Source: Candidatus Zhuqueibacterota bacterium
GTDB lineage: Bacteria; Zhuqueibacterota; Zhuqueibacteria; Zhuqueibacterales; Geothermadaptataceae
Direction of reading: 5' to 3'
Length of the DNA: 35,415 nucleotides
Assembly: GCA_030950365.1 (NCBI GenBank)
Contig: JAUZRQ010000110.1
Span: 1 to 35,415 of the forward strand
The notes under the pieces: generated by a model
Told to the model about the DNA's origin: nothing
Databases searched by the model: none
Seen by the model: only the letters and a program-made list of their open reading frames with translations
Shown here: in pieces, positions 2,748 to 24,368 of the stretch
Position numbering within the stretch: position 1 is the stretch's first letter
How the letters are laid out: each line of letters begins with the position of its first letter
Program-made: the position numbers and the translations under genes

Positions 2748-4097
2748 ATGATGAAAAAAGTTTATCTTGAAACCTACGGCTGCCAGATGAACGAGTACGA
2801 CTCGGAGCTCATCAAAGCCATACTTGAGAAGAATGATTACACCATGGTTGGCGGCCAGGATGATGCGGATGTGGTGCTGCTGAACACCTGCGCCATCCGC
2901 GAAAACGCGCACCAGAAGATTTTTCACCGCCTCGATCAGTTGAAATCGAAGAAAAAACGTGGCGAGATCAAGGTAGTCGGTATTCTGGGCTGCATGGCGC
3001 AAAATTTGCGCAAGGAGCTGGCCGAGCGCTCGCCGATTGTCGATATCGTGGCCGGCCCGGATAGCTACAAGCGGTTGCCATACCTGATTCGCTCGGCCAT
3101 CGAGAAAGGCGAGAAGGGTTTCGATTTTTCGCTGTCGGAATACGAAACCTATTCGGATATTGCGCCGCGCCGGTTGCCCGGCGTGAATGCCTGGATCGCC
3201 ATCATGCGCGGCTGCGACAATTTTTGCACCTTTTGCGTGGTCCCCTACACCCGGGGCCGCGAGCGCAGCCGGCCGGTGGATAGCATTATCGCCGAGGCGC
3301 ATCAGATCGTGGCCGAGGGTTTCAAGCAGATCACGCTGCTGGGGCAGAACGTGAATTCGTATCGCTATGAGGGCCAGGATTTCGCCGATCTGATGGAAAA
3401 AATGGCCAACATCCCCGGTCTGCGTCGGGTGCGCTTCACATCGCCGCATCCCAAAGACTTTCCGGTGCGGCTGCTGCACCTGATTGCCGAGCATGACAAT
3501 CTGTGCAACCACATCCATTTACCGCTTCAGGCCGGCAGCGACCGCGTGCTGGAGCGCATGAACCGTACCTACACAAAAAGAGAATTTCTTGAACTGGTGG
3601 CTACCATTCGTACGATCATCCCGGATGTGTCGATTACCACTGACATCATCGCAGGGTTCTGCGGCGAGACCGAGGAAGACTTCCAGGAGACCCTCGAGGT
3701 TATGCGTGAGGTGGAGTTCGATTCTGCGTTCATTTTTAAATACAGCGAGCGGAAGAACACTATCGCATGGCGGAAATTTGAGGACGATGTGCCCGATGAG
3801 GTGAAAACCGAGCGTGTTGTCCTACTGAATGAGCTTCAACGTGAGATCTCGAAAAAGCGAAATCGGGAAGAAATCGGACGTATCCGTGAAGTGCTGATTG
3901 AAGCACCCAGTAAGAAAAATCCGGACGAATGGCTGGGACGGACGGATCAAAACAAGGGGGTGGTGTTCTCGGCGCCGAAGAACCATGCCGGAGATTTCGT
4001 AAAAGTCAAAATTGTGGATGCAGGGACCCATACCCTGTTTGGTGAACTGATTGAAGAACCGCGTCGTTTGCCGATTGTGACTGAAGTGAATGTTTGA
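2748..4097 (+). CDS. miaB: tRNA-2-methylthio-N6-dimethylallyladenosine synthase MiaB
   Basis: Radical-SAM enzyme adding a methylthio group to i6A37 of tRNAs reading UNN codons. The N-terminal methylthiotransferase cysteines are C12 (ETYGCQMNEYDSE), C48 (LNTCAIRENA) and C82 (GCMAQN). The SAM cluster motif is C156-x3-C160-x2-C163 (GCDNFCTFC). A TRAM-like domain ends the 449-residue protein. TYGCQMN and NTCAIRENA are hallmarks of MiaB rather than MtaB. Two ATG codons in tandem (2748, 2751) can serve as start. It follows mtaB by 38 bases, so the two are probably co-transcribed; the pair looks like an old duplication with divided specificity. No miaA is in the window. Confidence 0.93.
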   Translation: MMKKVYLETYGCQMNEYDSELIKAILEKNDYTMVGGQDDADVVLLNTCAIRENAHQKIFHRLDQLKSKKKRGEIKVVGILGCMAQNLRKELAERSPIVDIVAGPDSYKRLPYLIRSAIEKGEKGFDFSLSEYETYSDIAPRRLPGVNAWIAIMRGCDNFCTFCVVPYTRGRERSRPVDSIIAEAHQIVAEGFKQITLLGQNVNSYRYEGQDFADLMEKMANIPGLRRVRFTSPHPKDFPVRLLHLIAEHDNLCNHIHLPLQAGSDRVLERMNRTYTKREFLELVATIRTIIPDVSITTDIIAGFCGETEEDFQETLEVMREVEFDSAFIFKYSERKNTIAWRKFEDDVPDEVKTERVVLLNELQREISKKRNREEIGRIREVLIEAPSKKNPDEWLGRTDQNKGVVFSAPKNHAGDFVKVKIVDAGTHTLFGELIEEPRRLPIVTEVNV

Positions 4098-4114
4098 ATG
4101 CGAAAGGAGTGACC

Positions 4115-5281
4115 GTGAAAGCGCCGAATCCGTATGACTTCTACAACATTAACACGCTGCTGACCGATGAAGAGCGCCAGGTGCGTGATATGGTGCGTGA
4201 ATTCATTCGCAACGAAGCCATGCCCGTGATCCGCGATTATTTTCGCGAGGGCCAATTCCCGACCCAGTTTATCCGGCCGTTTGGCGAGCTGGGACTGCTG
4301 GGGGCCAATCTGAAGGGCTACGGCTGTCCCGGACTGAATAATGTGGCCTACGGCTTGATTATGCAGGAACTGGAGTACTGCGATAGCGGACTGCGTAGTT
4401 TTGTGTCGGTGCAAGGCGCCCTGGTAATGTATCCCATTTACACCTTTGGTAGCGAGGAGCAAAAAGAGAAGTACCTGCCGAAATTGGCCTCCGGCGAATT
4501 TGTCGGTTGTTTTGGTTTGACCGAGCCCGATTACGGCTCAAACCCCAGTGGTATGATTACACGGGCCGAGAAAGTTTCGGGTGGTTACAAAATCAATGGC
4601 CGGAAGATGTGGATTACCAACGGCACGCTTGCGGATGTGGCCGTGGTGTGGGCTAAGCTGGACGGCAAAATCCGAGGTTTCGTGGTGGAAAAGGACACCA
4701 AAGGCTTTGAGGCCAAAGCCATGCATGGCAAGCTGTCGTTGCGGGCATCCGACACGGCCGAGCTGCTGTTTGAAGATTGCGTAGTGCCGGAATCGGCGCT
4801 GCTGCCCGGCACCGATGGGCTGAAATCGGCGCTGATGTGCTTGACTCAAGCTCGCTATGGCATTTCGTGGGGCGTGATTGGCGCGGCCATTTCATGTTTT
4901 GAGGAGGCGCTGAATTACGCCAGAGAGCGCATCGTGTTTGATCGCCCCATCGCCGGATTTCAGTTAACCCAGAACAAATTTGCTGATATGGCCACGGAAA
5001 TCACCAAAATGCAGTTGCTGTCGTATCAGCTTGGTCGGCTTAAAGACCGGGGCGAGATGCATTTTGCCCAGGTGAGCATGGCCAAACGCAACAATTGCTA
5101 CCATGCACTGGAAATCGCCCGCACCTGCCGCGAAATTCTCGGCGCCAACGGCATTATGGATGACTACGTGCCCATGCGGCATGCCAATAATCTGGAGACG
5201 GTGAAGACCTATGAGGGCACGCACGAAATTCACACGTTGATTTTGGGCGAAACTTTAACCGGGCTGGCGGCATATCAATAA
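4115..5281 (+). CDS. Acyl-CoA dehydrogenase, glutaryl-CoA dehydrogenase type
   Basis: FAD-dependent acyl-CoA dehydrogenase of 388 residues. With the GTG start at 4115 the arginine of GLRSFVSVQG is R94 and the catalytic glutamate of TYEGTHEIH is E367, close to Arg94 and Glu370 of human glutaryl-CoA dehydrogenase. Also present are the FAD/substrate stretches CFGLTEPDYGSNP and KMWITNG. Known members oxidise and decarboxylate glutaryl-CoA to crotonyl-CoA in lysine, tryptophan and benzoate breakdown, passing electrons to ETF. The GTG start is preceded by AAAGGAG at five bases. The longer TTG-started frame (4094) overlaps the miaB stop and has no such site. No other glutarate or benzoate pathway gene is nearby, so the exact substrate is inferred; a non-decarboxylating relative is possible. 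Confidence 0.8.
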   Translation: MKAPNPYDFYNINTLLTDEERQVRDMVREFIRNEAMPVIRDYFREGQFPTQFIRPFGELGLLGANLKGYGCPGLNNVAYGLIMQELEYCDSGLRSFVSVQGALVMYPIYTFGSEEQKEKYLPKLASGEFVGCFGLTEPDYGSNPSGMITRAEKVSGGYKINGRKMWITNGTLADVAVVWAKLDGKIRGFVVEKDTKGFEAKAMHGKLSLRASDTAELLFEDCVVPESALLPGTDGLKSALMCLTQARYGISWGVIGAAISCFEEALNYARERIVFDRPIAGFQLTQNKFADMATEITKMQLLSYQLGRLKDRGEMHFAQVSMAKRNNCYHALEIARTCREILGANGIMDDYVPMRHANNLETVKTYEGTHEIHTLILGETLTGLAAYQ

Positions 5282-12245: not shown

Positions 12246-12282
12246 AAAATCCCCATTTTTCTCTTGAAAAATGGGGATTTTT
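12246..12282 (+). terminator. Rho-independent terminator after add
   Basis: AAAATCCCCATTTTT (12246-12260) pairs with AAAAATGGGGATTTTT (12267-12282) around the loop CTCTTG, ending in a T-run. It closes the ccmE-ccmF-add unit. With A-runs on the left side it may also work in reverse. Its right half overlaps the -35 element of the suf promoter. Confidence 0.85.
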
Positions 12283-12292
12283 GTATTATACT
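12264..12292 (+). promoter_or_regulatory. Promoter of the rrf2-suf operon
   Basis: TTGAAA (12264-12269) and TATACT (12287-12292) are 17 bases apart, a good sigma-70 match. Predicted start is near 12299, inside the operator at 12294-12318. The -35 box lies in the loop and right arm of the upstream terminator. Confidence 0.65.
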
Positions 12293-12293
12293 T

Positions 12294-12318
12294 ATATCCG
12301 ACCAAATTAGTCGTATTT
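12294..12318 (+). promoter_or_regulatory. Rrf2/IscR-type operator
   Basis: Imperfect inverted repeat with half-sites ATATCCGAC and GTCGTATTT separated by seven A/T-rich bases; seven of nine positions are symmetric. It resembles the IscR type-1 site, with GAC and GTC cores about seven bases apart. It covers the predicted transcription start of the operon whose first gene is an Rrf2 regulator, so autorepression is likely. Confidence 0.65.
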
Positions 12319-12332
12319 AGTGAAAAGGCTAT

Positions 12333-12743
12333 ATGTTAAAATTATCCAAAAAATCCGAATACGGTATCATTGCGTTAAAGCATATATACCTTCACGGCCC
12401 GGAGCATCTGAGTTCAGCCCGTGAGATATCGCAAAGGTATCTTATACCGGTCGAAATCATGGCCAAGATTCTGCAGAGTCTTGCCAGAGCCGGGCTGGTA
12501 GAGAGTATCAAAGGCGCCAGAGGCGGGTATCGACTTTTGAAGGATGCCGCCGATATTTCAGTGAAAGATGTCGTGCACGCAATTGAGGGGCCCGTTGGCC
12601 TTGTAGAATGCGCCCTGGAGGCTGACGGGTGCTCTTGCGTGCAGTATAATCTTGGCGTTTGCAATATTGACGAGCCACTAGCAAAAATTCAGTTTGAATT
12701 TGAAAAATTCCTCGATAGGATAAAATTACCCGACTTGGCCTGA
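12333..12743 (+). CDS. Rrf2 family Fe-S sensing transcriptional regulator
   Basis: Winged-helix Rrf2/IscR-family repressor, 136 residues. The DNA-binding part includes KKSEYGIIALKHIYLHG and the wing GARGGYRLL near residues 61-69. Cysteines C93, C100, C102 and C110 follow, close to the C92/C98/C104 cluster ligands of E. coli IscR, so an Fe-S cluster in the effector region is likely. It is the first gene of the suf operon and is preceded by a fitting operator. By analogy with IscR or cyanobacterial SufR it would repress the operon when cluster supply is sufficient. The ribosome binding site is weak (AAAAGG). I leave the symbol empty because iscR versus sufR orthology cannot be settled by eye. 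Confidence 0.85.
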   Translation: MLKLSKKSEYGIIALKHIYLHGPEHLSSAREISQRYLIPVEIMAKILQSLARAGLVESIKGARGGYRLLKDAADISVKDVVHAIEGPVGLVECALEADGCSCVQYNLGVCNIDEPLAKIQFEFEKFLDRIKLPDLA

Positions 12744-12763
12744 ATTTTTTCGCGGAGGTAGCT

Positions 12764-13087
12764 ATGATTACCATTACCGAGAAGGCGATTGACGAAATCA
12801 GAAAAATTCTCGAGCAGGAAAACGAGCCGGATCTCTTCTTGCGCGTGGGCGTGCAGGGGGGAGGCTGTTCCGGTTTATCCTATTTTCTCAGTCTCGATAA
12901 AGAAATCCGTCCTCAGGATAAAATCCTCGAGCACGATGGTGTCAAGGTAGTGGTGGATTCGAAGAGTGCCATGTATCTCGAGGGCACCATCCTTGATTTT
13001 ACCGATGGCTTGATGGGAAGAGGGTTTGTGTTTAACAATCCGAACGCCGTTCGAACTTGCGGCTGCGGGTCGTCCTTTTCCGTCTAA
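12764..13087 (+). CDS. sufA: A-type Fe-S cluster carrier (SufA/IscA/ErpA family)
   Basis: A 107-residue HesB/IscA-family carrier that accepts Fe-S clusters from the SUF scaffold and delivers them to apoproteins. The three conserved cysteines are present: C35 in VQGGGCSGLSY, and C99 and C101 in TCGCGSSF. The ATG is preceded by GGAGGT at five bases, one of the best ribosome binding sites in the region, in keeping with a carrier made in quantity. It lies 20 bases after the rrf2 stop and 57 bases before sufC. The name sufA is given from operon position; ErpA or IscA would be equally compatible by sequence. Confidence 0.88.
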   Translation: MITITEKAIDEIRKILEQENEPDLFLRVGVQGGGCSGLSYFLSLDKEIRPQDKILEHDGVKVVVDSKSAMYLEGTILDFTDGLMGRGFVFNNPNAVRTCGCGSSFSV

Positions 13088-13144
13088 TTTCATTAAAACC
13101 CAAAATCGATTGATGTATCAGCAAAACCAAAGGAAGGGAGTTTT

Positions 13145-13900
13145 ATGAGCCTTGCAAAGAAACTGGAAATCAAGAACCTGCATGTGAGAACTGAAGATAA
13201 AGAGATTTTGAAGGGACTCGATTTAACCATAAATGTCGGTGAAATACATGCAATTATGGGGCCAAACGGGTCTGGAAAAAGCACACTGGCCAATACGCTT
13301 TTGGGACATCCGAATTATGAGATCACCGACGGCGATATTCTTCTGGATGGAGAAAGCCTTCTGGAGATGGAACCGGATGAGCGGGCCAAGCGTGGATTGT
13401 TTTTGGCCTTTCAATATCCTGCCGAAATCCCGGGGGTGAGCGTGATGAATTTTCTGCGCCTGGCCACCAAAGCCCGGGTGAACGGCAATGGCAAAGAAAT
13501 GAGCATTAGCGAGTTCCGCAAGCTGCTGAAGGAAAAATTAGAACTGCTGCAAATGGATGATTCGTTTTTGAACCGCTATCTTAATGATGGCTTCTCGGGT
13601 GGCGAGAAAAAACGCATGGAAATTTTGCAGCTTGCGGTGTTAAAACCCAGCATCGCGATTCTGGACGAGACCGATTCCGGTCTCGATATCGATGCTCTGA
13701 AAACTGTGGCCGCCGGTTTCAACAGCCTGGTTGGCCCGGATTTTGGCGCCCTGGTGATTACGCACTATCAGCGGATACTCAACTACATCAAACCGAATTA
13801 CGTTCACATTCTGGTGGATGGCAAAATCGCCAAATCCGGTGGGCCCGAGCTGGCCCTGCATCTGGAAGAGCATGGTTATGCCTGGATTACGGAAAAGTAA
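13145..13900 (+). CDS. sufC: Fe-S cluster assembly ATPase SufC
   Basis: Soluble ABC-type ATPase of the SufBC2D scaffold complex; it drives the conformational change needed for cluster assembly. It has 251 residues with Walker A GPNGSGKST (39-47), the SufC-characteristic ABC signature GFSGGEKKRMEILQ (about 147-160) and Walker B SIAILDETDSGLD. It has no membrane partner of the transporter kind. Start is well supported by AGGAAGGGAG upstream. It is followed by sufB after 33 bases, the sufC-sufB order common in many bacteria. Confidence 0.96.
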   Translation: MSLAKKLEIKNLHVRTEDKEILKGLDLTINVGEIHAIMGPNGSGKSTLANTLLGHPNYEITDGDILLDGESLLEMEPDERAKRGLFLAFQYPAEIPGVSVMNFLRLATKARVNGNGKEMSISEFRKLLKEKLELLQMDDSFLNRYLNDGFSGGEKKRMEILQLAVLKPSIAILDETDSGLDIDALKTVAAGFNSLVGPDFGALVITHYQRILNYIKPNYVHILVDGKIAKSGGPELALHLEEHGYAWITEK

Positions 13901-13933
13901 GTCCGCTTTAAGCAAACCCTAAAGGAGAACATC

Positions 13934-15337
13934 ATGGCTACTAACCCGGTAGACCTTAATTTTGATGAATATAAATACGGCTTTAAAGATCCGGAGAATT
14001 ACGTCTTTAAGCCGGAAAAGGGGCTGAGCCGTGAGGTCATCATAAAGCTCTCGAAAATGAAAGATGAGCCCGAGTGGATGACCGAATACCGGCTCAAAGC
14101 ATACGAGCATTTCATGAAGCGGCCAATGCCCACCTGGGGGCCGGATTTGTCGCAGCTCGACCTGGATGACATTTATTATTACATCCGGCCGACCGAGCAT
14201 ATGGAACGCTCATGGGATGACGTGCCGGAGACTATTCGCGAGACGTTCGAGCGATTAGGCATTCCCGAGGCCGAGCGTAAATATCTCGCGGGGGTCGGCG
14301 CACAATACGAATCCGAAATGGTGTATCACAGCCTGCTCGAACATCTTGAGGAACAGGGGGTGATTTTCCTGAGCATCGAGGATGGCCTGAAGCAACACCC
14401 CGACCTGTTCAAGCAATATTTCGGCACAGTCGTGCCCATGAACGACAACAAGTTCGCTTCCCTGAACAGCGCGGTATGGTCGGGTGGTTCGTTTGTATAT
14501 GTGCCCCCGGGCGTGAAAGTGGACATGCCGCTGCAGGCGTATTTCCGCCTTAACGCCGCCAATGTGGGCCAATTCGAGCGGACGCTGATCATCGCCGATG
14601 AAGGCGCTTATGTGAATTACGTAGAAGGCTGCACGGCACCGATTTACAGCACCGATTCCTTTCACAGTGGCGTGATTGAAATTGTGGTCAAAAAAGGTGC
14701 ACGTGTCCGTTACACTACCATTCAGAATTGGTCTAGCAATGTGTACAACCTGGTCACACAGCGGGCCATTGTGGAAGAAGAGGGCACGATGGAATGGGTG
14801 GATGCCAATCTCGGATCGAAAGTGACCATGAAATACCCGTCCTGCTATCTTATGGGACGGGGCGCTCGCGGTGAGATTCTGTCTTTGGCCTTTGCCAGCA
14901 AAGGGCAGCATCAAGATGCCGGCGGAAAAATGGTGCACGTGGCCCCTGACACCTATTCGACCATCGTATCTAAGTCCATCAGCAAGGCCGGTGGCCGTTC
15001 AAGCTACCGCGGACTGCTGAAAGTGTATCCTGGCGCCACTGGCGTCAAATCCAACGTGCGCTGCGACGCGCTATTGATGGACGATTATTCGCGCTCAGAC
15101 ACCTATCCATACATCGAAATTGACGAAGACGATGTGACTATCGGTCACGAAGCGTCGGTTAGCAAGGTTGGCGAGGAGCAGCTGTTTTACCTGATGAGCC
15201 GTGGTTTGAGCGAAGACGAAGCCACGACTCTAATTGTGCGCGGGTTCATTGAACCGCTGGTAAAAGAGCTGCCAATGGAATACGCCGTGGAAATGAACCG
15301 TCTGATCGAGCTTGAAATGGAAGGCTCCATTGGCTAA
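13934..15337 (+). CDS. sufB: Fe-S cluster assembly scaffold protein SufB
   Basis: Scaffold subunit of SufBC2D, 467 residues with the beta-helix repeat core. The conserved [20 protein letters not shown] contains the cysteine equivalent to E. coli SufB Cys254, thought to accept sulfur. Near the C-terminus E. coli has Cys405 in NGFC; here the place reads VRGFIEP, as in the Bacillus-type SufB. The ending [18 protein letters not shown] is the usual family terminus. The ribosome binding site AAAGGAGAA is good. A terminator-like hairpin lies between this gene and sufD. Confidence 0.96.
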
Positions 15338-15418
15338 AATCTCAAAGCAGGATTCCGCAATGCAGGTAACTATCTGAATACCGTTTTAAACCGATTGCGA
15401 ACCTATGATAAGTTGTGC

Positions 15419-15458
15419 AGAGCTTCTGTCGGTTTTCAAGGCAGAGGCTCTATTTTTT
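15419..15458 (+). terminator. Intrinsic-terminator-like hairpin between sufB and sufD
   Basis: AGAGCTTCTGTC (15419-15430) pairs along all twelve positions with GGCAGAGGCTCT (15440-15451), two of them G-U, around a nine-base loop; an A and six T's (15453-15458) follow. It sits in the unusually long 150-base gap between sufB and sufD, inside an operon whose other gaps are -11 to 57 bases. It probably gives partial termination or RNA processing, lowering sufD-sufU relative to sufA-sufC-sufB. Confidence 0.65.
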
Positions 15459-15487
15459 GATTGAATTTGAAGTTAAGGAGGTGAAGC

Positions 15488-16861
15488 GTGTTACACCCGC
15501 CGTTAGACCGTGAGGTCATGATAAAAAATGACAACCCTCATTTCACGCGTAAGAATGTGGAAGCGCTGGCCGAATGGCAGGGCAACCCAGACTGGATGCG
15601 TCAGGCGAGGCTGCAATATTTTGAGCTGTTCGAGAAACTGCCCATGCCCGGCCGACGCGATGAAGAATGGCGCAAATCCGATATCAGCAAACTGGCTTAC
15701 GATTCGTATTTGCCCTTTCTGACCGATGATCGGCCGGCCTATTCCCTGGACACCCTGCCATCAAAATTCGGCATAGAATTGCCTGATGAAGCTCAGACCA
15801 ACGGATTGTACCTCGCCGTGGACGGACGGCAGGCCTATCAGCGCCTGGCAGAGGAGCTGAAATCCAAAGGCGTTATCTGGACCGATATGAAGACAGCCGT
15901 GCGAGAATATCCCGAGCTGGTGCAGAAATACTTCATGCGGTCGGTGGATGAGAACGAAGAAAACAAATTCACCGCGCTGAACGCGGCCTTCTGGAACAGC
16001 GGCATGTTTTTGTACATCCCAAAGAATGTGGACATCGAACTGCCGTTGCATATGATCAACTGGTTCGACAGCACTAAAATGGTGCACAATCTGCATACGC
16101 TGATCGTGTTGGAGCAGGGGGCCTCAGCAGTATATTTCGATGAGTTCGCCTCCGCTGAAAAAGAGCAACAGGCATGGGTGAACAGCGCCATTGAGATTTT
16201 TGTGGAAGACGGCGCGCGCCTGCAGTACATTAGCCTGCAAAACCTGTCCGGGAACGTGTATAACTTCGCACATCGCAGGGCTCGCATCGGTCGCGATGCC
16301 GTCATGAACTGGCTGATCGGTACGTTTGGCTCCGAGTTCACTAAATCTACCATTTCCAGTATTCTGAATGGAGAAGGTGCGGAAACGCAGATGCTCGGTA
16401 TTGCGTTTGGTGAGCGCAACCGGTTTATCGATCAGCATACGCATCAAATTCACGAAGCTCCCCATACCCGAAGCGATTTGCTATTCAAAAATGCTATTAT
16501 GGAAGGCGGCCGTACCGTGTACCGTGGTGTTATTCGCATTGCTCAGCATGCCCAACGCAGTGACGCCTATCAGGCCAACCGCAATTTGATGCTGGGCGAC
16601 AATGCCCGCGCCGAGTCGATCCCGGCGCTGGAGATTATCGCCAACGATGTACGCTGCACCCACGGCGCCACAGTTGGCAAGATCGATCCAGATCAGTTGT
16701 TCTATCTACAGAGCCGCGGCCTGTCAAGGCCGGAGGCGGTGCAACTGCTGGTGCGAGGCTTTTTCTTCCCGGTGCTGCAGCACATCGACCAGGAGTACAT
16801 CGCCGGACGGATGAATGAAATCATCGAGAAACGGACCGAAACGGTGATCGATAAAATTTAG
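15488..16861 (+). CDS. sufD: Fe-S cluster assembly protein SufD
   Basis: SufB paralogue forming the other half of the SufBC2D scaffold, 457 residues. The N-terminal helical part includes MPGRRDEEWRKSD, and the C-terminal core carries RCTHGATVGKIDPDQLFYL, whose histidine matches the E. coli SufD His360 thought to help bind iron or cluster. The GTG start at 15488 is fixed by a perfect AGGAGGT five bases upstream. This strong site may compensate for the terminator-like hairpin just before it. It is followed by the Rieske gene after 11 bases. Confidence 0.94.
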   Translation: MLHPPLDREVMIKNDNPHFTRKNVEALAEWQGNPDWMRQARLQYFELFEKLPMPGRRDEEWRKSDISKLAYDSYLPFLTDDRPAYSLDTLPSKFGIELPDEAQTNGLYLAVDGRQAYQRLAEELKSKGVIWTDMKTAVREYPELVQKYFMRSVDENEENKFTALNAAFWNSGMFLYIPKNVDIELPLHMINWFDSTKMVHNLHTLIVLEQGASAVYFDEFASAEKEQQAWVNSAIEIFVEDGARLQYISLQNLSGNVYNFAHRRARIGRDAVMNWLIGTFGSEFTKSTISSILNGEGAETQMLGIAFGERNRFIDQHTHQIHEAPHTRSDLLFKNAIMEGGRTVYRGVIRIAQHAQRSDAYQANRNLMLGDNARAESIPALEIIANDVRCTHGATVGKIDPDQLFYLQSRGLSRPEAVQLLVRGFFFPVLQHIDQEYIAGRMNEIIEKRTETVIDKI

Positions 16862-16872
16862 GATTCGCAAGC

Positions 16873-17181
16873 ATGGCTGACTTTGTTGAAGTTGCAAAAA
16901 CGACGGACATTCCTGCCGGTAAAGCCAAAGTGGTTGAGGTCCAAGATAAGAAAATCGCCATCTTCCATGTGGATGGGCGGTTTTACGCTATCGACGATAC
17001 CTGTTCCCATGAAGACGCTTCATTAGCCGCGGGAACGGTAGAAGGGACCGAGGTAATGTGCCCCCTGCATGGTGCCCGATTTGACCTGCGAACCGGCAAA
17101 AACCTCAGCCTGCCAGCGGTGTTTCCGGTGCAATCGTATGAGTTGAAAATCGAAAACGATGCGATCTTTATCCTGGTTTAA
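16873..17181 (+). CDS. Rieske [2Fe-2S] ferredoxin-like protein
   Basis: A soluble 102-residue Rieske-type electron carrier. Cluster ligands are C44-x-H46 (DDTCSHEDASL) and C63-x2-H66 (VMCPLHGARFD), with the usual 16-residue spacing between pairs. It resembles the ferredoxin component of non-haem dioxygenases, but no dioxygenase is nearby. Similar small Rieske genes occur in other bacterial suf operons, where a role in supplying electrons for cluster assembly, or simply as a client, is suspected but unproven. Only three bases separate its stop from sufS. Confidence 0.9.
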   Translation: MADFVEVAKTTDIPAGKAKVVEVQDKKIAIFHVDGRFYAIDDTCSHEDASLAAGTVEGTEVMCPLHGARFDLRTGKNLSLPAVFPVQSYELKIENDAIFILV

Positions 17182-17184
17182 ATC

Positions 17185-18408
17185 ATGATTGATTTATCGC
17201 GGTACCGCAAAGATTTCCCGATTTTGAATCAAACGGTAAAGGGCCGGCCGCTAATCTATCTGGACAACGCGGCCACGGCCCAGAAGCCGCTACAGGTGAT
17301 CGGGACGGTGGATCAGTACTACCGCGAATACAATTCCAATGTGCACCGTGGCCTGCACACGCTGAGCGAACGCGCGACCCGGGCTTATGAAAAAGCCCGT
17401 GAAAAGGTCGCGCGTTTTATCCATGCCCCCCGCAGCGAGGAGGTTATTTTCACTCGCAACACCACCGAGTCTATCAATCTGGTAGCGTACACCTGGGCGC
17501 GCAAATTCCTGAAGGCAGGGGATGCCATTTTGCTCACCGAAATGGAGCATCATAGTAATCTTGTACCCTGGCATCTGCTGCGTGAAGAAAAAAGCATCGA
17601 GCTGCGGTTCATTCCAGTTACGCCTCGTGGTGAGCTGGACTTGCAGCACCTTAAACAACTATTGGATGGAGTTCGGCTGGTATCCGTGACGCACATGTCG
17701 AATGTGCTCGGTACCATCAATCCGGTGGAAGTCATTACCGAAGAGGCTCATGCCGCAGGTGCAAAAGTGCTCATTGATGGTGCGCAAGCGGTGCCCCATA
17801 TGCCGGTCAATGTGCAGGACATCGATTGTGATTTTTATGCCTTTTCCGGCCACAAGATGTGTGGGCCCACCGGCGTTGGCGTGCTGTGGGCCAGAGCTGA
17901 AATTCTGCGCGATATGCCGCCATTTCTGGGGGGGGGAGAGATGATCCACGAGGTGCACCTCAATCATTCCGATTACGCCGATATTCCCAATAAATTTGAG
18001 GCCGGAACGCCCAACATTGCTCAGGCTATCGGTCTGGGCGCCGCGGTCGATTACCTTTCAAGAGTGGGCATGGAAAACATCCTGCAACACGAGCAAGAAA
18101 TAGGCGCTTTAGCCATAGAAAAGTTGAAATCCATCAAAGGATTGCGTATCTTTGGGGAATCCGAAAAGCGCGGTGCCGCGATATCGTTCGAGATCGAGGG
18201 CGTGCATCCGCACGACATTGCCACCATTCTCGACGAACAGGGCATCGCCATCCGTGCGGGCCATCATTGCGCACAACCGCTGATGCGGAAATTCAATGTG
18301 CAATCGACGGCCCGGGCGAGTTTTTATTTTTATAATGTGCCGGAAGAAATCGATATTCTGGTGGATGCACTGAAAACCGCAAAGAGACTGTTCGGCTATG
18401 TCACTTGA
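17185..18408 (+). CDS. sufS: Cysteine desulfurase SufS
   Basis: PLP-dependent group II cysteine desulfurase, 407 residues, releasing sulfur from cysteine as a persulfide. The PLP lysine is K224 in FSGHKMCGPTG and the persulfide cysteine is C362 in RAGHHCAQPLM. MEHHSNLVPW and DGAQAVPH, which contact PLP, are also present. The short GHHCAQP loop is typical of SufS acting with SufU or SufE. An uninterrupted run of nine G's (17928-17936) encodes the LGGGE turn and is a potential slippage site. It overlaps sufU by 11 bases, implying coupled translation of the enzyme with its sulfur acceptor. Confidence 0.95.
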   Translation: MIDLSRYRKDFPILNQTVKGRPLIYLDNAATAQKPLQVIGTVDQYYREYNSNVHRGLHTLSERATRAYEKAREKVARFIHAPRSEEVIFTRNTTESINLVAYTWARKFLKAGDAILLTEMEHHSNLVPWHLLREEKSIELRFIPVTPRGELDLQHLKQLLDGVRLVSVTHMSNVLGTINPVEVITEEAHAAGAKVLIDGAQAVPHMPVNVQDIDCDFYAFSGHKMCGPTGVGVLWARAEILRDMPPFLGGGEMIHEVHLNHSDYADIPNKFEAGTPNIAQAIGLGAAVDYLSRVGMENILQHEQEIGALAIEKLKSIKGLRIFGESEKRGAAISFEIEGVHPHDIATILDEQGIAIRAGHHCAQPLMRKFNVQSTARASFYFYNVPEEIDILVDALKTAKRLFGYVT

Positions 18409-18829
18409 CGCACTGTATCAGGAAATCATACTGGAGCACTACAAAAACCCTCGCAATTTTGGCAAACTGGATGAATCGCGCGCCAAAGCTCATTATGAAA
18501 ACCCCTCTTGCGGCGATCAAATCGATCTGCAGATTGTCCTCAATGACGATATGGTGGTCGAAGATATCCGATTTCAAGGACGAGGCTGCGCCATCAGCCA
18601 GGCATCGGCTTCGCTAATGACCGAAGCCGTGAAAGGCAAGCCGCTCGATGAGGTGCAAAAAATCATCGAGAGCTTTACCAGCCTGATGACCGGCGAAGGC
18701 GAAATCACGGTTGAGCTAGGCGACCTGGAAGCGCTGGAGGGGGTGAAAAAGTTCCCGGTGCGGGTGAAATGCGCCATGCTGGGCTGGACGGCGCTGAAGA
18801 GCCTGCTGGAGCGTGAGACCAAATCCTGA
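18398..18829 (+). CDS. sufU: Sulfur-transfer/scaffold protein SufU
   Basis: IscU-fold protein of 143 residues. The three conserved cysteines and aspartate are C38 and D40 (NPSCGDQ), C64 (GRGCAIS) and C125 (RVKCAMLGW). The sequence has the insertion between the second and third cysteine that distinguishes SufU from IscU. In Bacillus, SufU uses zinc-bound cysteines to accept persulfide from SufS. No sufE is in the operon, which fits the SufS-SufU type. It is the last gene of the suf unit; no clear terminator was found in the 78 bases before the convergent minus-strand gene. Confidence 0.93.
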   Translation: MSLDALYQEIILEHYKNPRNFGKLDESRAKAHYENPSCGDQIDLQIVLNDDMVVEDIRFQGRGCAISQASASLMTEAVKGKPLDEVQKIIESFTSLMTGEGEITVELGDLEALEGVKKFPVRVKCAMLGWTALKSLLERETKS

Positions 18830-23884: not shown

Positions 23885-24316
23885 AAGTCCTCCCTCCGAA
23901 TGGTCACATGTGGTTTACCTAATTCAAGCCCTGAAAGCAGGATCGGCCCGGATAGCACACAACAAAAAAAGCAATAGGATGGGGGGGAAGAATAAGAAAC
24001 ATCGATTTATGATGCGCATGAATTTTTCCGGGCATATGCGGATGGGTGTTTGGTTGGGTAGTTTCAATGTGCAGCAGGAATGTCCATTTCCTGCCGAACC
24101 TGTTAAATCAAACAGAAATCAACATATAACAAAATTGAAAAAAAATCAAGCAAAAAAATCCCCTGAGCATTGCGGCCGGATGGGCGTCATACAAAGCGCA
24201 AACTATCGCGGCCATGCCGCGAACCATGCAGGATTCTCGCACCTGCTGCAACCATACAGAGCCCTTTCTGCGGGCACAGCCTACGAAAAACGAGCAGCGG
24301 TCGTCGGAGTTTTCTA

Positions 24317-24345
24317 TTGGATTTTGTTCTATTTTATTATATATT
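24317..24345 (+). promoter_or_regulatory. Candidate promoter of ecfT-truA
   Basis: TTGGAT (24317-24322) and TATATT (24340-24345) are 17 bases apart in an AT-rich patch. Predicted start near 24352 gives a structured leader of about 190 bases before the ecfT ATG. Confidence 0.45.
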
Positions 24346-24368
24346 TATTGCCTGATTACGTGAACCGG

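Follow-up and report, generated by a model that had tools for sequence, protein, structure and literature searches.

A conserved hairpin with a T-tract between sufB and sufD is a candidate leaky terminator inside a suf operon of the KSB1 phylum

Why does a suf operon with otherwise closely spaced genes keep one long gap between sufB and sufD, and what does the terminator-like hairpin in this gap do? In the window, i.e. the whole analysed stretch of 35,415 nucleotides from the 4.98 Mb genome G000, the genes sufR-sufA-sufC-sufB-sufD-fdx-sufS-sufU follow each other on the plus strand from 12333 to 18829. NCBIfam models assign them to an Rrf2 regulator (sufR), a SufA-type protein, SufC, SufB, SufD, a Rieske-type ferredoxin (fdx), SufS and SufU; against the sufB model, the sufD product reaches 327, which lies under the cut-off of that model (346). 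Spacings within the operon are 20, 57, 33, 150, 11 and 3 nt plus one overlap, so that the gap between the co-directional genes sufB and sufD is the sole long one. The perfect AGGAGGT motif that the preliminary description had pointed out in front of sufD is present at 15476-15482, 5 nt ahead of the GTG, and this start codon is common to G000, to the KSB1 genome G001, which is the single genus sister compared, and to G012, a genome of another family in the same order. Moreover, the first 41 nt of sufD (15488-15528) are identical at 40/41 positions between G000 and G001 compared with 77% over the entire gene, and the N-terminal SufD residues are also well conserved in G012.

The elements of the gap and its surroundings are summarised in Table 1. 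The stem is built of 12 contiguous pairs, among them two G-U and six G-C pairs, and after the 9-nt loop and the 3' arm follow an A and six T's, with 36 nt between the end of the stem and the GTG of sufD. Hairpin and T6 lie on the operon's own strand, and an antisense terminator was rejected, as the minus strand has no T-run. By itself, the hairpin folds with -18.7 kcal/mol. Together with its flanks (53 nt) it reaches -19.5 kcal/mol with a z-score of -3.62, and 2/200 shuffles were equally or more stable; the folding stability of the entire gap is ordinary (z -0.80). As a chance test, each of 20,000 dinucleotide-shuffled versions of the gap was searched for its longest contiguous stem with at least 5 T in 7 positions after it. 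Stems of at least 12 pairs with a T-tract, 12 being the value of the real gap, occurred in 4/20,000 shuffles and stems of at least 8 pairs in 61/20,000, and a chance origin of the hairpin is unlikely. A simple hairpin scan with loops of up to 8 nt misses this structure due to its 9-nt loop. The earlier observation of a 12-bp stem with six T's in the only long gap of the operon is thus borne out by sequence, folding and shuffles, and it shows two marks of an intrinsic terminator: a stable stem-loop containing G-C pairs and a U-rich tract right after the stem, which is kept in G001.

Table 1. Position and conservation of the features in and around the sufB-sufD gap and at the suf promoter (positions in the window; identities refer to the genus sister G001)
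Feature	Position	Strand	Remarks
IscR type-1-like operator, suf promoter	12294..12318	+	20/25 positions of the E. coli consensus
sufB, directly upstream of the hairpin	13934..15337	+	TIGR01980, 733 bits, cut-off 346
sufB-sufD gap, 150 nt	15338-15487	+	contains the hairpin
Spacer, sufB stop to hairpin	15338..15418	+	unconserved; 81 nt in G000; 29 nt, unrelated, in G001
5' arm of hairpin, AGAGCTTCTGTC	15419..15430	+	11/12 identical
Loop, 9 nt	15431..15439	+	4/9 identical, free to vary
3' arm of hairpin, GGCAGAGGCTCT	15440..15451	+	12/12 identical
A + T6 tract 3' of stem	15452..15458	+	7/7 identical
sufD leader with AGGAGGT Shine-Dalgarno	15459..15487	+	28/29 identical; predicted to be partly paired with the T-tract
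sufD, first gene 3' of hairpin, GTG start	15488..16861	+	TIGR01981, 280 bits, cut-off 222

Silent sites in the two neighbouring genes are near saturation between G000 and G001, with 98/213 (46%) of the four-fold sites identical in sufB and 60/169 in sufD. Over the same distance, the two stems differ at just one of 24 positions (23/24 identical), where a T to C in the 5' arm converts a U-G into a C-G pair. T-tract and leader up to the start codon agree at 35/36 positions; the loop and the spacer upstream of the stem differ as given in Table 1. Selection on stem, T-tract and leader appears to be the better reading of this pattern rather than recent gene conversion, since the latter would leave the loop identical as well. 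As the genus comparison covers two genomes, the covariation evidence consists of a single one-sided change. A third mark of a terminator, a structure kept by selection in relatives, is nevertheless seen in these two genomes (conserved stem, pair-keeping change, variable loop), and the conservation of the stem in related genomes, on which the preliminary description had made its proposal depend, is found in G001. Elsewhere in the window, 54 nt rich in A and T (24305-24358), which lie between aligned genes, are 98% identical to G001, with the surrounding DNA unaligned.

To place the suf hairpin among comparable structures, about one tenth of G000 (502,555 bases, slightly more later) and a smaller part of G001 were scanned, using gene calls from a crude longest-ORF method, so that all "coding" labels are approximate. 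In the 502,555 bases of G000, strict criteria for a hairpin plus T-run select 51 sites, counting both strands and including the suf one. Thirteen of the 51 are more stable than the suf hairpin, 10 of the 14 strongest (suf included) are located in gaps, and G000 appears to use terminators built in the same way. A hairpin with a T-run is not always a terminator, however, because 30 of the 51 sites are labelled coding by the crude ORF call. In 5 of 43 syntenic gaps, among them the suf gap, a hairpin and T-run occur on the same strand in both genomes. The fate of individual hairpins between G000 and G001 is diverse: i) those at C1:12272 differ in sequence and those at C21:15022 by several, partly compensatory, changes, ii) C3:21010 (48/60 identical), C21:6602 (46/58), C1:136387 (44/57), C21:15061 and C1:12308 have diverged or been replaced and iii) hardly any change is seen in the stems of C6:15567 and C1:58312, and C3:15796, which has a weak T-run, is identical at 46/46 bases. 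Within the less similar regions, 36-base windows with 35 or 36 identities account for 0.6% (C14), 0.8% (C1) and 1.5% (C3) of the aligned windows. The suf hairpin is therefore at the conserved end of the ordinary range for this genome pair and not beyond it. Since other hairpins are near-invariant too, the invariance of its stem is nothing special, and it was rejected as proof of a protein-binding RNA. A short repeat at L089 6343-6379 (CCACGGATG...CACGGATGAA) has 32 short G001 matches among those listed.

Outside the genus, the arrangement is variable. A SufD match was found in 52 of the 63 genomes of the class, and sufB lies immediately before sufD in at least seven of them, which is a lower bound because several genomes have the two genes on different contigs or in fragments; in most other judgeable genomes they are about 1 kb apart. 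With start codons taken from longest-ORF calls, the gap measures 150 nt in G000, 98 nt in G001, 168 nt in G012, 259 nt in G038, 136 nt in G026, 30 nt in G016 and 20 nt in G021. In the gap of G012, whose SufD is 54% identical, a hairpin with a folding energy of about -27 kcal/mol is followed by TTTT and is unrelated in sequence. In G038, a strong hairpin without a T-run ends 38 nt before sufD; the gap of G026 contains no strong short-loop hairpin, only an inverted repeat with a longer loop seen by eye, and the gaps of G016 and G021 contain no hairpin. The combination of hairpin and T-run is present in three of the seven operons with sufB directly before sufD, and it is dispensable for such an operon, since G016 and G021 lack a hairpin and G038 and G026 lack the combination. 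When 15405-15545 was compared as DNA with 82 genomes of the phylum, G001 was the sole long match among those listed (122/141 bases, 90%), followed among these matches by 29 bases over the T-tract; the match in G012 spans only the sufD start and the end of the leader. Within G000, the hairpin has no second copy at E ≤ 0.001, and a mobile or dispersed repeat element was rejected on the basis of this single match. Regarding the proteins, SufB of the genus is only 44-46% identical to SufB in other genera of its family, and G012 has the genus' kind of SufB and SufD; the suf operon at 12333-18829 is perhaps a different lineage of operon. The sufB frame of G012 (L048, G012:C115, about 3405-4394, minus strand) encodes 329 aa that match residues 6-180 and 352-467 of SufB from the window, and the absent middle of this scaffold protein is due to either a deletion or an assembly error.

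Taken as a whole, the hairpin is probably a leaky intrinsic (Rho-independent) terminator that would lower expression of sufD-fdx-sufS-sufU relative to sufR-A-C-B. RNA polymerase transcribing sufR-A-C-B would produce the stem and the U-tract, a fraction of the transcripts would stop at about 15453-15459 and the remaining ones would continue into sufD-fdx-sufS-sufU, giving an mRNA step down past sufB. The terminator form proposed earlier is backed by the conserved stem and T-tract, the free loop, the orientation along the operon, the similar intergenic hairpins in the genome and the unrelated hairpin of G012; partial termination at this place is plausible, and termination in vivo, leakiness as opposed to a complete stop and a benefit of the step down are what we infer from these features. 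In a scan limited to sigma-70-like sites, none with at least 8/12 matches begins 3' of the stem in G000 or G001. In consequence, sufD-fdx-sufS-sufU would need read-through, and with sufD, sufS and sufU downstream of the stem a leaky terminator is the simplest account.

Such a step down may be useful by giving less SufS and SufU and making SufD limiting with respect to SufB and SufC. For the E. coli Suf complex, a SufB, SufC and SufD ratio of 1:2:1 has been reported, and a SufB2C2 complex has been described as well (PMC6006206). The preliminary description had linked the hairpin to the need for two SufC per complex, and this explanation is weak: as the hairpin lies 3' of sufB, SufB would rise as much as SufC, and a stop after sufB cannot by itself result in 1:2:1. 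A terminator at this position would increase SufA, SufB and SufC to the same extent relative to SufD, SufS and SufU. Surplus SufB2C2 would agree with this, as would a smaller demand for SufS and SufU. The strong Shine-Dalgarno motif of sufD may offset the loss by termination, although it is predicted to be largely paired. The predicted mean pairing probability of GGAGG, which ignores ribosomes, is 0.86 in G000 and 0.78 in G001 for the leader alone, and 0.88 and 0.85 together with the hairpin. It is also conceivable, but decidedly doubtful, that the element is a dual device, in which the U-tract of read-through RNA pairs with the region before and into the sufD Shine-Dalgarno (UUUUUGAUU with AGUUAAGGA), so that nucleotides which stop many transcripts would also throttle translation of sufD on the remaining ones. 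If true, a dual device would account for the conservation of the entire 36-nt tail (35/36) besides that of the stem.

Terminators inside operons are already known, and the suf hairpin adds another case. The closest parallel are ABC-importer operons of Ruminiclostridium cellulolyticum, where internal intrinsic terminators cause 20.7-96.1% termination in reporters (PMC9045158). Here as there, a stem-loop lies in the gap after an upstream gene of the operon, and in R. cellulolyticum it brings a share of the transcripts to an end and fixes how much upstream mRNA is present relative to downstream mRNA. In contrast, those operons encode other proteins in another phylum; their internal terminators are generally poorer in U's, and the suf hairpin has a clean T6. 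Incomplete termination within operons as a general route to lower downstream expression is also reported for Methanococcus maripaludis (PMC10450193) and Dickeya dadantii (PMC9239193). The former is an archaeal case, and the word hairpin appears nowhere in the main text of that paper, and the suf site of D. dadantii is described after sufABCDSE and before ldtC rather than between sufB and sufD. Among the open-access papers retrieved for terminators inside suf operons, no title or abstract shown describes one between sufB and sufD, which is no proof of absence; a paper on Rhodobacter isc-suf (PMC6956336) was discarded as precedent, as "terminator" is the name of an exonuclease in both passages considered.

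A different role for the same structure would be RNA processing, i.e. cleavage of the mRNA in the vicinity of the hairpin, whereupon the hairpin shields the 3' end of the sufR-A-C-B piece and acts on stability and not on termination. This is rather unlikely, although the mechanism as such is known from the cip-cel operon, where the stoichiometry within a multi-protein complex depends on an intergenic stem-loop (PMC4423207), and although a conserved stem with a free loop and the strong hairpin of G038, which lacks a T-run, would suit it. Cleavage and protection, by which the cip-cel stem-loop acts, do without a T-tract; in the suf gap, T6 is kept in G001, and even the unrelated hairpin of G012 is followed by a T-run. 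A full terminator that ends sufR-A-C-B and leaves sufD-fdx-S-U to their own promoter, in the gap or in sufB, would be in line with a promoter-like TTGAAA-17-TAAAAT at 15312-15340 (10/12), which has a counterpart at the same place in G001 (TCGAGA-17-TAAAAT, 9/12), and the strongly conserved leader could carry promoter elements of unknown type. However, transcripts from the site at 15312-15340 would meet the terminator too, because it precedes the hairpin. Besides the negative scan after the stem, a weak site at 15433 in the loop of G000 is absent from G001, and the distance from stem to start codon is just 36 nt, all of which makes two separate units distinctly unlikely. That the hairpin is a product of chance or a relic without any effect is the least credible option and highly improbable, given the shuffles and the conservation against near-saturated silent sites.

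Very unlikely as well is a conditional attenuator or riboswitch-like element, in which a ligand, a protein or a leader peptide toggles the hairpin by iron or Fe-S status, as the preliminary description had considered. The conservation of the leader and of the first 41 nt of sufD, as well as short ORFs that overlap the hairpin in G000 and G001, could be taken in its favour. Yet, the short ORF common to both genomes differs at three codons, all of them nonsynonymous and, as judged by eye, unlike a selected protein, and a leader peptide was rejected for this non-protein pattern and the absence of a Shine-Dalgarno motif by eye. Against Rfam, the window yields nothing that reaches the gathering level, and the two hits within 15300-15600 are at chance level (E 0.66 and 0.7), so that a riboswitch, a T-box or another known RNA was rejected. 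Based on the comparison of G000 with G001, whose 29-nt spacer is unrelated, the region upstream of the hairpin contains neither a conserved sensor nor a conserved competing structure. For control by iron or Fe-S status, the suf promoter is the more promising place, with putative Rrf2 binding at an IscR type-1-like site. Using the E. coli consensus as printed in PMC3899308, 12294-12318 is the best IscR type-1 match of the entire window (20/25; next 18), and the best matches of the G001 contig and the G012 stretch are found at the same place, ahead of the first gene; an IscR site in the sufB-sufD gap was rejected, as its best score on the plus strand is 15/25 versus 20 at the promoter. With nothing conserved upstream of the hairpin and this site at the promoter, a riboswitch-like switch is unlikely, and the proposal of a conditional attenuator found no support. 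Between sufR and the gene upstream of it, the promoter region (12246-12318) also contains an inverted repeat of 16 bp without a mismatch, which is terminator-like on both strands and overlaps a promoter-like TTGAAA-17-TATACT, followed by the IscR type-1-like operator.

For the leaky terminator, which we regard as the probable role of the hairpin, the mechanism itself would be ordinary, as internal terminators that set ratios within operons are already known. If true, it would mean that the scaffold genes of a SUF operon in the KSB1 phylum are separated by a built-in step down, with SufD, SufS and SufU limiting, and this would bear on the existence of SufB-SufC complexes without SufD in such bacteria.
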